64,000 bases of DNA, taken from Martelella radicis. GTDB lineage: Bacteria; Pseudomonadota; Alphaproteobacteria; Rhizobiales; Rhizobiaceae. The translations under genes were made by a program, and so were the position numbers. The DNA is taken from assembly GCF_014196625.1 (NCBI RefSeq), contig NZ_JACIDZ010000002.1:62001-126000 (forward strand). The letters run 5' to 3'. Below, one piece after another: positions 31,197 to 34,840 of this stretch. The notes beneath the pieces were generated by a model. The model was not told where the DNA came from and made no database searches. It saw only the letters and a program-made list of their open reading frames with translations. Numbering within the stretch: the first letter of the stretch is position 1; each line of letters starts with the position of its first letter.

Positions 31197-31435
31197 CGTC
31201 CTTGTTTGAGGAAGATAGCGGATCTCAACGCCCGCTGAAGCTCGTATTCTGCCCGCGCCGAAGAACTGTATGCGTTATATTCAGCTAACATTCAGAAATG
31301 AACATCTATCAAGAATCATCCGTTTTCGAGCGTGAATACAGTAACTTAAGAAATCTTGCCTATTTTAGTAAAGTATCTTGCGCGCAATCATTCCGCGTGT
31401 CATAGAGAGAATAGACGGACAGGAAAGGGCATCAC
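31197..31435 (+). promoter_or_regulatory. AT-rich promoter region of the ferritin-Feo operon
   Basis: A 239-bp gap without a gene, markedly AT-richer than its flanks from about 31265 on. A weak promoter pair TTAAGA (31346-31351) and TAAAGT (31369-31374), 17 bp apart, is possible. I looked for Irr (ICE) and RirA boxes, expected for iron genes in this group, and could not match either with confidence. Confidence 0.4.
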
Positions 31436-31939
31436 ATGACCGTAACCAATGCTGGCGCCATGGCGCCGCAGCTCAATGAACTCCTGAATGGCGAGATGGA
31501 AGCCGCCCGCTTCTATTTCCAGGCCGCTGCATGGTGCAACCAGCGCAACATGGCCGGTTGCCAGAGTTTCCTTCTCGGCCATGCCAATGAGGAACTCGAC
31601 CATATGCGCCGCTTCCTCGCCTACCTGTTCGACCTCGATTTCGCGGTGAAGATCGCCGAGATGGAGGCCCCCGAGATCAAGGCCGAAACGCCGCGCGAAA
31701 TGTTCGCCGCCATTCTGGAAACCGAAAAGCAGGTGACCCGCAACATCTATGCGGCAACCACCCGCGCGGAAGAGGAAGGCGATCACGCCACCTTCGAATT
31801 CCTGCAGTGGTTCGTGCGCGAGCAGCGCGAAGAAGAAACGCTTTTCAGCGATATCCTCGACAAGATCGACCTGATCGGCGATGGGCCGCACGCCAAGTAC
31901 TTCATTGATCGCGAGATCGCGGCCATGGGGCAGAAATGA
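31436..31939 (+). CDS. ftnA: Bacterial non-haem ferritin
   Basis: A 167-aa four-helix-bundle iron-storage protein aligning along its length with E. coli FtnA (165 aa). Ferroxidase ligands are in place: E20, E53 and H56 in HANEELDHM, E97 in ILETEKQ, and E129, Q130 and E133 in FLQWFVREQREEE. The C-terminal YFIDREI matches FtnA YFIDKEL. It forms 24-mer cages that oxidise Fe(II) and store Fe(III). The stop overlaps feoA (ATGA), coupling storage with ferrous iron import, an unusual arrangement. Confidence 0.94.
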   Translation: MTVTNAGAMAPQLNELLNGEMEAARFYFQAAAWCNQRNMAGCQSFLLGHANEELDHMRRFLAYLFDLDFAVKIAEMEAPEIKAETPREMFAAILETEKQVTRNIYAATTRAEEEGDHATFEFLQWFVREQREEETLFSDILDKIDLIGDGPHAKYFIDREIAAMGQK

Positions 31940-32223
31940 GCAACGATCCAACCATGGAGACGCTCCGCGAGGGCCGGATCGTCTCGCTTGAAAGCCTCCA
32001 GCCCGGCGAAAGCGGCATTGTCGAAATCGTCGAGGCCGGAAGTTTCGAGAACGGGCTTTCGGTGCGCCTCAGGGCCCTCGGCCTTTCAAGCCCGCACCAG
32101 GTCTCCATGGTCAGACGCGCCTGGTTCGGCGGGCCGCTTGTCGTGCGCGCCGGCAAGGCGACGGAAATCGCGATCCGCCGCACGGAGGCCGAACTGGTCA
32201 AGGTGCGCAAGATCGAAGACTGA
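31936..32223 (+). CDS. feoA: Ferrous iron transport protein A
   Basis: A 95-aa SH3-like protein that assists FeoB. Hydrophobic beta strands, a central RLRALGLSSPHQVSMVRRA with GGPLVVRAG, and the closing TEIAIRRTEAELVKV match FeoA. A slightly longer N-terminus than usual (about 15 aa). Four-base overlap with ftnA. The feoB start follows within 1-141 bp, depending on which start is used. Confidence 0.9.
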   Translation: MSNDPTMETLREGRIVSLESLQPGESGIVEIVEAGSFENGLSVRLRALGLSSPHQVSMVRRAWFGGPLVVRAGKATEIAIRRTEAELVKVRKIED

Positions 32224-32364
32224 TTGAAGACAGAAGCGGCGCGACGAACGCGCCGGCTATCCAGAATACAAAGAATGCCGGAAACGGCGCGCGGGTCAAA
32301 ACCGAGCACACTGCAAACACCGGCGGGCGGAGCCTTTCCGCCGGCCCAAGCTCCGGAAGACGCC

Positions 32365-34203
32365 ATGTCTCATTGTTCGCCGGCAGAAGCCAATCTCGAC
32401 CTGAACGACGTTCCCCGCATCGCCATGATCGGCCAGCCGAATACCGGCAAGTCGATGCTCTATAACCGCATCACCGGCGCCAGCGCCTATGTCGGCAACT
32501 GGCCGGGCATCACGGTCTCGCTCTCCAATGCGCGCGTCAAACTCGGCGGCAAGACGCTGGAATTCGTCGATCTTCCCGGCATTTACGACCTCGAGGGCTT
32601 TTCCGAGGACGAGACCGTCGTCGCCGATTTCCTCAAGACCTATCCCGTCGATCTCGTCATCATCGTCATCAATGCCAGCCAGATCGACCGCCAGATCCTG
32701 ATGCCGCTGCAGGTCAAGCAGCTCGGACTTCCCGCCGTCGTCATGCTGAACATGGCCGACGAGGCGCGCAAGAACGGCATCGAGATCGATACGGAAGCGC
32801 TGTCCGCCCGCCTCGGCCTGCCGGTGCACCTGATCAGCGCCAAATATGGCGAGGGCTATCCCAAGGCGATCGACAGCGTCAGCACAATGCTCGACGGACG
32901 AAAGGAAGAGCCGCCGGTTCTGGCCGATTACGAAGCGCTGCGCACCACGCTGATGACCGACGAGACGCTTGCCGAAACGCTTTCCGGCGCCGTCGTCTAT
33001 CCCGAAGCGCCGCCGCAGACGACCACCCAGAAGCTCGACCGTGTCCTGCTTCACCCGGTTTTCGGCCTGCCGCTGTTCTTCGCGGTCATGCTGTTCGTCT
33101 TCTATATCGTCTGGTCCATCGGCCTGCCCTCGCAGGACTGGGTCGGCTTCATCACCGACTGGATCCAGAACCGCATCCTCGAACCGGTGCTGAGCCTCGG
33201 ACCGGGCTGGCTGCGAAACTTCGTCATCAACGGCATCTGGCTGGGCGTTGCCACCGTCGCCTCCTTCGTGCCGCTGATCATGCTGTTCTTCTTCTGCATG
33301 GCGGCGGTGGAAGACAGTGGCTACCTCTCGCGCGCGGCCTATCTGATGGACACATGGATGCGCCGCATCGGCCTCGACGGGCGGTCCTTCGTCATGCAGA
33401 TGATGGGTTTCGGCTGCAACGTGCCGGCGCTGATGGGCACGCGGGTGATGCGCTCGCAGCCGCTCCGGCTGCTCTCCATGCTGATCATCCCGTTCTCGCT
33501 CTGCTCGGCGCGCCTGGCGGTGTTCGTCTTCATCATCGCCGCCGTCTTCCCGCCCGCCCAAGGCCCATTCGTCCTGTTTTCCTTCTACGTCATCTCGTTT
33601 GCCGCGGCCTTCCTCGCCGCCGCGATCTTTTCGCGCTCGAAGCAGTTCAGGAATACCGAGCCCTTCGTGCTGGAACTGCCGCCCTACCGGGTGCCGACGC
33701 TTCGCCAGGTCTGGCTGCGCGGCTATGGCGAGCTCAGGGAATTCCTGCACCGGGCGACGAATTTCATCATTATCGGCACGATTGCCGTCTGGTTCCTGAC
33801 CAATTTTCCGACCGATGCCACCGGGCTCGAGACCTGGGGCGGCAAGCTCGGCGAGCTTCTCCAGCCGGTCATGGCCCCGATCGGGATCAACCCCTATCTG
33901 ACGCTGGCGCTGATCTTCGGCTTCATCGCCAAGGAAGTGGTGATCGGGTCGCTGTCGACGATCTACGCCATGTCTTCCGGCCTCGTCGCCCACCAGATCG
34001 CCGTCTCGGTCTCGCCTGCGGCCGCCTATTCCTTCTGCCTGTTCTGCCTGCTCTACACGCCCTGCCTGACGACGGTGGCAACGGTAAAGGCGGAAAGCCG
34101 GTCCTGGGGCTTCATGATCTTCTCGCTGATCTTTTCGCTCCTCTATGCCTGGGTGATCGCCTTCCTGTTCTACCAGGGCGCCCTGCTGCTGGGCTTCAAA
34201 TAG
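32365..34203 (+). CDS. feoB: Ferrous iron transporter B
   Basis: A 612-aa Fe(II) transporter from ATG 32365. The N-terminal G domain has G1 GQPNTGKS (23-30), switch G3 DLPGIYDL and G4 NMAD. The membrane domain has the two Gate motifs, including GFGCNVPALMGTR and SLCSARLAVF with their conserved Cys. Shorter than E. coli FeoB (773 aa) mainly in the spacer and C-terminus. The frame is open back to TTG 32224, abutting feoA, with another ATG at 32275; 32365 is preferred because GGAAG lies ahead and G1 then falls near the N-terminus. The next gene starts 10 bp later. Confidence 0.94.
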   Translation: MSHCSPAEANLDLNDVPRIAMIGQPNTGKSMLYNRITGASAYVGNWPGITVSLSNARVKLGGKTLEFVDLPGIYDLEGFSEDETVVADFLKTYPVDLVIIVINASQIDRQILMPLQVKQLGLPAVVMLNMADEARKNGIEIDTEALSARLGLPVHLISAKYGEGYPKAIDSVSTMLDGRKEEPPVLADYEALRTTLMTDETLAETLSGAVVYPEAPPQTTTQKLDRVLLHPVFGLPLFFAVMLFVFYIVWSIGLPSQDWVGFITDWIQNRILEPVLSLGPGWLRNFVINGIWLGVATVASFVPLIMLFFFCMAAVEDSGYLSRAAYLMDTWMRRIGLDGRSFVMQMMGFGCNVPALMGTRVMRSQPLRLLSMLIIPFSLCSARLAVFVFIIAAVFPPAQGPFVLFSFYVISFAAAFLAAAIFSRSKQFRNTEPFVLELPPYRVPTLRQVWLRGYGELREFLHRATNFIIIGTIAVWFLTNFPTDATGLETWGGKLGELLQPVMAPIGINPYLTLALIFGFIAKEVVIGSLSTIYAMSSGLVAHQIAVSVSPAAAYSFCLFCLLYTPCLTTVATVKAESRSWGFMIFSLIFSLLYAWVIAFLFYQGALLLGFK

Positions 34204-34213
34204 GAGAGAACGG

Positions 34214-34840
34214 ATGCGCCATTTCAGGGAAAACAAGACACTCATCGCGGCCGGCGGCATTTTCTTGATCATCGTCATCTCGGCGCTGACCTTCCTCAAG
34301 CCAAAGGGCATGCACGACCCGGCCGCGCGTTACGACCAGTTGCGCGCCTATCTGCAAAGCGGCGATTTTCGCGCCGCCAATACGGAAGCCTCCGAAATCA
34401 CGCTGGTGCTTGCCGGGCGCACCAATGAGGGCTGGCTCGGTGTCGAGGATGTCGAACGCCTGCCCTGCGCCGACATCGCCTATATGGACATGCTGTTCTC
34501 CGAGGCCTCCGGCGGCCGGTTCGGCCTGACGGCCCAGCGCCAAGTGCTGGACGACCTTCCGGAAACGACACCCGACGGCGTGCTGCTCTCCTCCGCGCCG
34601 GAAGCGCTGGTAGCCTTCGGCGATGCCGTCGGCTGGCGCGAGAACGGTGCCTGGATCAGCTATGATGACATGCGCTTTTCGCCGGCGGACGCACCGAAGG
34701 GCCACCTGCCGGTGTTCAAGCCGAGGGACGGCATCCGCATTCCCTTCAAGTCCCGCGATGGCCGGCCGCAAAGGGGCGGCGCGCTTTACGACCTTCTGAC
34801 TTCGCGGCTTGAAACCTGCCGGCCCGAGATCGCTGGATAA
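34214..34840 (+). CDS. Membrane-anchored GUN4-domain protein in the Feo operon
   Basis: A 208-aa protein with one N-terminal membrane helix (residues 9-27) and a soluble GUN4 domain (about 40-165). Matching motifs: YDQLRAYLQSGDFRAANTEA, EGWLGVEDVERLPCADI, GGRFGLTAQRQV, and the C-terminal block FGDAVGWRENGAWISYDD with PKGHLP. GUN4 proteins bind protoporphyrin IX and Mg-porphyrins and stimulate Mg-chelatase in oxygenic phototrophs. No chlorophyll gene is nearby; the gene sits 10 bp after feoB in an operon with ferritin. I infer a porphyrin- or haem-responsive partner of FeoB at the inner membrane. This function is not established. Confidence 0.88.
   Translation: MRHFRENKTLIAAGGIFLIIVISALTFLKPKGMHDPAARYDQLRAYLQSGDFRAANTEASEITLVLAGRTNEGWLGVEDVERLPCADIAYMDMLFSEASGGRFGLTAQRQVLDDLPETTPDGVLLSSAPEALVAFGDAVGWRENGAWISYDDMRFSPADAPKGHLPVFKPRDGIRIPFKSRDGRPQRGGALYDLLTSRLETCRPEIAG

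Follow-up and report, generated by a model that had tools for sequence, protein, structure and literature searches.

A stand-alone GUN4-like protein with a predicted membrane helix follows the ferritin gene of a ferritin–Feo operon in Martelella

What does a GUN4-like domain do in an iron operon? The question is raised by four genes on the forward strand of a 64,000-nucleotide stretch of the Martelella radicis genome (hereafter the window), in which a gene that we call gun4L stands behind genes for a ferritin (ftnA) and for the Feo proteins FeoA and FeoB. The literature describes porphyrin and bilin binding by GUN4 of oxygenic phototrophs (PMC10156173, PMC8967248) and names the chelatase H-subunit as its partner protein (PMC10156173). 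It also calls the domain cyanobacteria-specific (PMC8195603), places its origin in cyanobacteria (PMC7159879) and states that phototrophic Alphaproteobacteria lack GUN4, although BchJ is termed a homologue (PMC11480375). An earlier interpretation made without database searches (the sequence-only reading) had proposed a tetrapyrrole sensor at the inner membrane with FeoB as its specific partner. Comparison across the genus gave a different answer: gun4L follows FtnA, not FeoB. The best explanation of the locus as a whole, to which we give a probability of about 0.35, is that the gun4L product is a membrane-anchored accessory of a ferritin–Feo module.

The four genes, all identified from the window sequence, its open reading frames and profile searches, are as follows.

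31436..31939, + strand: ftnA, FtnA-type non-haem ferritin of 167 amino acids, first gene of the operon (Pfam Ferritin, 117.7 bits)
31936..32223, + strand: feoA, 95 amino acids (Pfam FeoA, 47.3 bits)
32365..34203, + strand: feoB, Fe(II) transporter of 612 amino acids (TIGR00437, 551 bits; Pfam FeoB_N, 166.4 bits, with Gate and FeoB_C)
34214..34840, + strand: gun4L, 208 amino acids, with an N-terminal hydrophobic helix (residues 10–28), a GUN4-like domain (residues 38–173, by Pfam), a C-terminal helix and the pair Cys85/Cys202

The stop codon of ftnA and the start codon of feoA share a 4-bp ATGA overlap. The feoB frame is open from TTG 32224, with ATG 32365 the likelier start, and the gap after feoA is accordingly +1 to +141 bp; gun4L follows feoB after 10 bp, with AGGAGA just 5′ of its ATG. 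On re-examination, the four-gene operon was correct as originally read, in its coordinates and in its spacing (−4, +1 to +141 and +10 bp). The order ftnA–feoA–feoB–gun4L–typA recurs in all six Martelella genomes that carry gun4L, so the arrangement is not due to chance. NCBIfam confirmed FeoB. For ftnA, the NCBIfam model PRK10304 (non-heme ferritin) scored 116.5 bits, under its equivalog cut-off of 178, and bacterial non-haem ferritins headed the PDB matches; by Pfam, the product is a ferritin, here termed FtnA-type and not a certified FtnA orthologue.

The GUN4 domain that had been read from the translation by eye was borne out by the profile search: Pfam GUN4 (PF05419) matched residues 38–173 of the gun4L product with 93.4 bits against a curated cut-off of 29.2. 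NCBIfam listed no family for this protein at E 0.001. A phmmer search of the PDB at the same threshold returned four distinct sequences, all GUN4 by title (best E 3.1e-9); the molecule names of three of these are different (putative cytidylyltransferase, tetrapyrrole-binding protein), although their structures are titled GUN4. AlphaFold models were made of gun4L with two sequences and of the soluble domain with three (pTM 0.72). When these were searched with Foldseek, the leading rows were GUN4 chains throughout (12 with the first model, 14 with the second), and no match reached E 0.001 (best E 2.0e-2 and 7.9e-3, respectively). Comparison with cyanobacterial GUN4 structures, a check that the sequence-only reading had named, came out clearly in VIA-align, where all 14 chains at Z ≥ 5 were GUN4 and the eight GUN4 entries to which they belong reached Z 9.4–10.0 over 111–129 residues, the next row standing at 4.3. 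Rows below the GUN4 chains (Z ≤ 4.3, mostly helical-repeat proteins) were read as common helical arrangements. The low confidence of the models (mean pLDDT 63.7 and 66.8), which is worst in the loop of putative ligand residues, weighs against this assignment. By profile and model, the gun4L product is nevertheless a genuine GUN4 fold behind an N-terminal hydrophobic helix. It is the one GUN4 match in the host genome (4.99 Mb, 41 contigs) and lies on contig 2, as does the window. Contamination or a chance domain match was rejected given the size of this contig (461 kb), purifying selection in six genomes and constant neighbours.

With which gene, then, does gun4L keep company? PF05419 was found in six of 13 genomes of the genus, and an intact FtnA-type gene is present wherever gun4L is present and absent wherever it is absent (13/13). 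At the locus, each of the seven genomes without gun4L lacks an intact ftnA, whereas six of these seven keep a full-length feoB; the seventh, G010, retains only its last 77 residues. Half of the genomes with full-length feoB (6/12) thus do without gun4L. Linkage to feoB in relatives, as the sequence-only reading expected it, therefore stood in one direction, since gun4L adjoins feoAB in 6/6 gun4L genomes, and failed in the other, since six genomes have feoAB without it; FeoB as the specific partner was not upheld, and fixed feoB linkage was dropped as the main signal in favour of the complete agreement with ftnA. All 35 ferritin places of the 13 genomes were compared with ftnA of the window: those at the six gun4L loci are 87–100% identical to it, and by tblastn four others are 25–27% identical and 25 show no significant match. 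In the family sample, FtnA relatives were likewise rare, occurring at E 1e-20 or better in 4 of 297 genomes, two of them gun4L genomes and two with only 43–46% identity.

Most telling are two close relatives, G004 and G005, whose feoB genes are 96–97% identical to that of the window, yet from which ftnA and gun4L are both gone. In G004 an in-frame internal deletion has cut ftnA to a 38-codon remnant that overlaps feoA (L044:3446-3562); in G005 an unrelated junction stands where ftnA would be, and the gun4L junction seems, by eye, common to both genomes. The differing ftnA junctions suggest that ftnA was lost separately in G004 and G005. G010 has lost the feo operon except for the last 77 codons of feoB (L049), and a second feoB, 35% identical, is found elsewhere in G010, G005 and G006. 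On a tree of the unlinked rpoB gene, the gun4L/ftnA state changes three times, as would be the case if both genes were gained together once and lost together twice; the feoB tree comprised 12 of 13 rows, G010 with its 77 residues being left out. Three changes are few, and because the two traits form one vector a pair test is trivial, with p 0.25 at best, which tempers the weight of the association. Most likely, gun4L has been inherited as a pair with the FtnA-type ferritin, the two genes flanking feoAB on either side.

Does the domain keep the residues by which GUN4 binds tetrapyrroles? In the phmmer alignment to GUN4 of the PDB, Synechocystis N211 corresponds to K169 of gun4L, R214 to D172, W192 to Y150 and F196 to position 154. 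Across six orthologues, aligned with the last residues of five rows left out, K169, D172 and Y150 are invariant and position 154 varies (Arg, Ser or Thr). The bilin motif LxNxLR of Synechocystis GUN4, which includes N211 and R214 (PMC10156173), is replaced by V-F-K-P-[REK]-D in all six. In the alignment register used, gun4L likewise matches neither the conserved Phe (Synechocystis F196) nor the conserved Arg (R214) described as serving porphyrin binding (PMC8967248); exchange of that Arg in Arabidopsis (R211E) lowered the affinity for Mg-porphyrin about 12-fold (PMC8967248). Chlamydomonas GUN4 N219G lost bilin binding and kept porphyrin binding (PMC10156173), so porphyrin binding may persist when the Asn alone is lost, and cyanobacterial GUN4-domain paralogues without this Asn are described (PMC10156173). 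The loop register is uncertain, the model being of lowest confidence there: a shift by one residue would set the invariant F155 at F196, and in the six orthologues F155 and R175 adjoin or occupy conserved positions. No chelatase H-subunit/CobN (ChlH/BchH, PF02514) was found in the 13 genus genomes, with 5 of 14 control genomes positive. The features tested speak against gun4L as a chelatase cofactor and do not support canonical tetrapyrrole binding; the tetrapyrrole sensor with canonical binding loses ground here, with N211, R214 and F196 replaced and the substituting Lys and Asp invariant. A non-canonical ligand site may exist.

If gun4L is not a chelatase cofactor, which GUN4 does it resemble? 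A tblastn search of 72,556 plasmid records matched 30 records (39 places), all from cyanobacterial genera by name, and the highest identity (39%) was to a trypsin–GUN4 protein with a hydrophobic leader. Sixteen of the 30 records were fetched and compared. Cys85 and Cys202 are invariant in the six Martelella orthologues; the position of Cys85 is Cys in 14 of the 16 plasmid GUN4-domain proteins, and 11 of 16 have, by eye, a Cys in a similar C-terminal setting, which the alignment does not align in all. The two proteins without the first Cys (L107 and L112) also lack the second, and among the five without the C-terminal Cys, L083 and L085 have another Cys near the end. As L110 and L111 are closely related, these counts are partly non-independent. 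In three chelatase-type GUN4 sequences the first position is Ile, Ala or Val. The cyanobacterial set includes a kinase with a helix ahead of GUN4, TIR–GUN4 and RNase III–GUN4 fusions (domains by profile, helices by eye) and small proteins in which GUN4 stands alone behind a hydrophobic segment at the N terminus. The match to the Stanieria kinase already starts within the helix, at residue 22. In a 26-row tree, with 15 of 23 inner branches drawn open, chelatase GUN4 formed its own clade (99/94) without Martelella, and the Martelella clade joined the trypsin–GUN4 protein at 94/71, the deeper forks being mostly unresolved. On account of the Cys pair and the best matches, we place gun4L with moderate confidence on the branch of the cyanobacterial accessory or paralogue domains, which are known from signalling and secreted proteins, and apart from the cofactor of Mg-chelatase. 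The same pair of Cys residues is found in cyanobacterial fusions (TIR, RNase III-like) that are presumably cytoplasmic, so it proves neither a periplasmic setting nor a disulfide.

Several relatives deserve separate mention. Plasmid pREC2 of Acaryochloris marina carries a stand-alone gene for a GUN4-domain protein (L109:2330-2953), flanked by genes for an RND adaptor and an RND permease; the annotation of an upstream gene is that of a hexameric tyrosine-coordinated haem protein. Here, too, a small protein with a GUN4 domain is encoded among membrane-transporter genes. Similar small proteins with an N-terminal hydrophobic leader are encoded at L110:2327-2935 (Leptolyngbya) and L111:2324-2935 (Nostoc) on plasmid records typed as linear, and the Nostoc gene adjoins a protelomerase gene. 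Among 50,697 phage records no relative was found at E 1e-3, and a scan with the Martelella alignment confirmed none. One IMG/VR contig encodes a GUN4-like protein with a transmembrane helix (L113:2812-3459) immediately behind a long frame resembling, by eye, a tape-measure protein; a strongly basic stretch, RKHKER, comes after the helix and suggests a topology opposite to that in Martelella.

The single N-terminal helix noted in the sequence-only reading was borne out as a hydrophobic helix at residues 10–28 in 6/6 orthologues. The net charge of its flanks is +3 to +4 on the N-terminal side (amino terminus counted) and −2 to +2 on the C-terminal side, and because the N-flank is the more positive in all six, an N-in, domain-out orientation is predicted. 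The GUN4-like domain may thus be periplasmic, which weakly disfavours the proposed sensing of a cytoplasmic porphyrin pool. Read from charge, this topology is weakly supported: counting only Lys and Arg, the N-flank is ahead in three of six orthologues and tied in the other three, the window protein included, and two small cyanobacterial or phage GUN4 proteins with a transmembrane helix have, by eye, a basic C-flank suggestive of the opposite topology.

How the gene came into Martelella can be approached from its distribution. PF05419 matched 2 of 297 genomes sampled from the family, 1 of 297 from the order, 1 of 337 from the class and 1 of 349 from the phylum, and every one of these matches was a genus member, with no genome outside the genus; the sets are overlapping samples, and rare copies elsewhere are possible. 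A relative in Martelella mediterranea IOP_24 is 72% identical. The gene probably entered the Martelella ancestor by horizontal transfer. Its GC content (0.643, compared with 0.620 for the window) is not foreign, which argues against this view. A single cyanobacterial donor for ferritin and gun4L jointly was considered and found unsupported: the leading PDB and plasmid matches of the ferritin are bacterial non-haem ferritins, and the plasmid matches listed for it (20 of 30 records) are from non-cyanobacterial genera. On trimmed gene ends, dN/dS over 15 pairs was 0.225–0.463 for gun4L, compared with 0.03–0.13 for ftnA, 0.05–0.16 for feoA and 0.03–0.13 for feoB. The gene is under purifying selection, constrained yet fast; that it evolves faster than its operon neighbours counts against the favoured explanation.

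These findings bear unequally on what gun4L is and on what it does. That its product is a stand-alone, membrane-anchored GUN4-like protein of the paralogue type is, in our judgement, likely; that it is a periplasm-facing accessory adjusting FeoB-driven Fe(II) entry is a tentative proposal. In the mechanism that we infer, the acquired protein would have its N terminus in the cytoplasm and span the inner membrane with one helix, and its GUN4-like domain would lie in the periplasm, stabilised by the Cys85–Cys202 pair. Placed there, the domain would adjust Fe(II) entry, either by binding a small ligand or through contact with FeoB on its periplasmic side, and cells with an FtnA store could thereby load iron fast without toxicity. 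A bolder version, which we regard as doubtful, is that a composite FtnA–FeoA–FeoB–Gun4L ‘uptake-and-store’ module has recruited a GUN4-like fold, outside phototrophs, for a regulatory subunit that faces the periplasm, senses a signal other than a chlorophyll precursor and gates Fe(II) entry through FeoB only where a dedicated ferritin is kept.

Another account would be that gun4L and ftnA share a niche and not a mechanism, having arrived with an iron-rich, low-oxygen lifestyle and been lost jointly on leaving it. It needs just the three inferred state changes, G010 is nearly without the whole feo operon, and vent sulfides were the source of the gun4L-bearing strain IOP_24, with assembly prefix JAINWJ, which grew anaerobically by oxidising Fe(II), supplied as FeCl2, with nitrate (PMC9861301), a trait that fits an iron-rich niche, although no gene is tied to it. 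G004 and G005, however, lost both genes yet kept feoAB, and their ftnA junctions differ. This niche-only account has a modest chance of being right and is nearly as good as the favoured accessory reading. Alternatively, the protein could handle haem or porphyrin in the periplasm through a remodelled site of non-canonical type, being expressed together with the iron genes but touching neither FeoB nor FtnA. Tyr150, Phe155, His164, Phe168, Arg175 and Cys85/Cys202, all invariant and located within or close to the groove segment, speak for such a site, as does the Acaryochloris plasmid gene among RND pump genes with a haem-protein annotation upstream; but the seven flanking proteins profiled include no haem transporter or haem oxygenase, the pairing with FtnA is left unexplained, and we consider this unlikely.

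Still less probable is the porphyrin or haem sensor of the sequence-only reading, which would tie FeoB-driven Fe(II) import, and storage, to tetrapyrrole levels. The GUN4 fold, the porphyrin and bilin binding of phototroph GUN4 and the operon with iron genes all invite it, and the Chlamydomonas variant shows that loss of the Asn is not by itself fatal (PMC10156173). Against it stand the changes of R214 to Asp, F196 to Arg, Ser or Thr and N211 to Lys, with Asp and Lys invariant, the six of 12 full-length-feoB genomes that do without gun4L and, weakly, a net charge that favours the periplasmic side. The least probable of the alternatives is a partner on the cytoplasmic side that would dock FtnA onto FeoB and let incoming Fe(II) move straight into ferritin. 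It would account for the 13/13 pairing, FeoB is in the membrane, phototroph GUN4 itself binds a partner, the chelatase H-subunit (PMC10156173), and the Lys and Arg count leaves the topology unsettled; the net charge, however, predicts the opposite topology in 6/6 orthologues. The membrane-anchored accessory of the ferritin–Feo module is the favoured reading.

One element lies upstream of the operon.

31372..31406, + strand: promoter-like element 5′ of ftnA, AGTATCTTGCGC...GTGTCATAGA, read by eye from the upstream alignment

By eye, the AGTATCTTGCGC...CATAGA element has a close form in six of 12 aligned upstream regions and a looser form in five, and is missing from G003. A single upstream region is common to ftnA and feoAB, although genes for iron uptake and for iron storage are usually regulated in opposite directions. 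The seven flanking proteins profiled between 27241 and 39666 have ordinary roles in metabolism, translation, regulation and transport: sugar-acid and mannitol-type dehydrogenases, altronate/galactarate dehydratase, TypA/BipA, an HxlR regulator and a TctA transporter. No chelatase is among them; that none lies nearby, as had been noted from the sequence, agrees with the genome-wide result for the H-subunit.

How does gun4L compare with known systems? With the GUN4 Mg-chelatase cofactor (PDB 1y6i, 1z3x, 4xkb, 4ykb and 7e2t) it has the core fold (Z about 10) and the conserved FG..Q, GW and AP.GHLP segments in common. It differs in having a hydrophobic helix where cyanobacterial GUN4 has an N-terminal domain (the match begins at chain residue 93–96 of 233–238), in the replaced N211, R214 and F196, in two invariant Cys residues, in an insertion at about residues 113–130 and in a host genome in which no ChlH, BchH or CobN was found. 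Closer are the GUN4-domain paralogues of cyanobacteria, which occur as C-terminal modules in Ser/Thr kinase, trypsin, TIR and RNase III-like proteins or as small stand-alone forms. They resemble gun4L in the first Cys (14/16), the C-terminal Cys (11/16, by eye) and the replaced Asn of LxNxLR (Lys in 6/6 gun4L proteins); they are, however, cyanobacterial and mostly fused to other domains. Within the 2–2.5-kb flanks of the 16 plasmid GUN4-domain genes no annotated feo or ferritin gene was seen in an incomplete gene table, and among the titles and abstract openings listed, which leave subscription literature largely uncovered, none describes a protein with a GUN4 domain alongside feo or ferritin genes. 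FeoA and FeoC, like the gun4L product, are small proteins encoded beside feoB, and gun4L is encoded with feoB in 6/6 of the genomes that carry it; FeoA and FeoC are cytoplasmic (PMC8749426), whereas the gun4L product has a membrane helix and a GUN4-like domain, and FeoA is a separate gene here. The roles of Feo accessory proteins are described as still unclear (PMC8749426), and the states of presence, absence and partial loss in Martelella offer a ready natural comparison for them. By its PDB matches ftnA resembles bacterial non-haem ferritin, but it sits in a feo operon and its presence is linked to gun4L. A genus-restricted, selected and operon-linked alphaproteobacterial copy indicates that the GUN4 domain is usable elsewhere, probably in iron biology, and raises the question of which ligands GUN4-like domains take once the porphyrin residues are lost. 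What appears new by the literature covered, set against a known domain family and known operon parts, is a stand-alone GUN4-like protein with a predicted membrane helix in a ferritin–Feo operon of a host without a detectable chelatase H-subunit.

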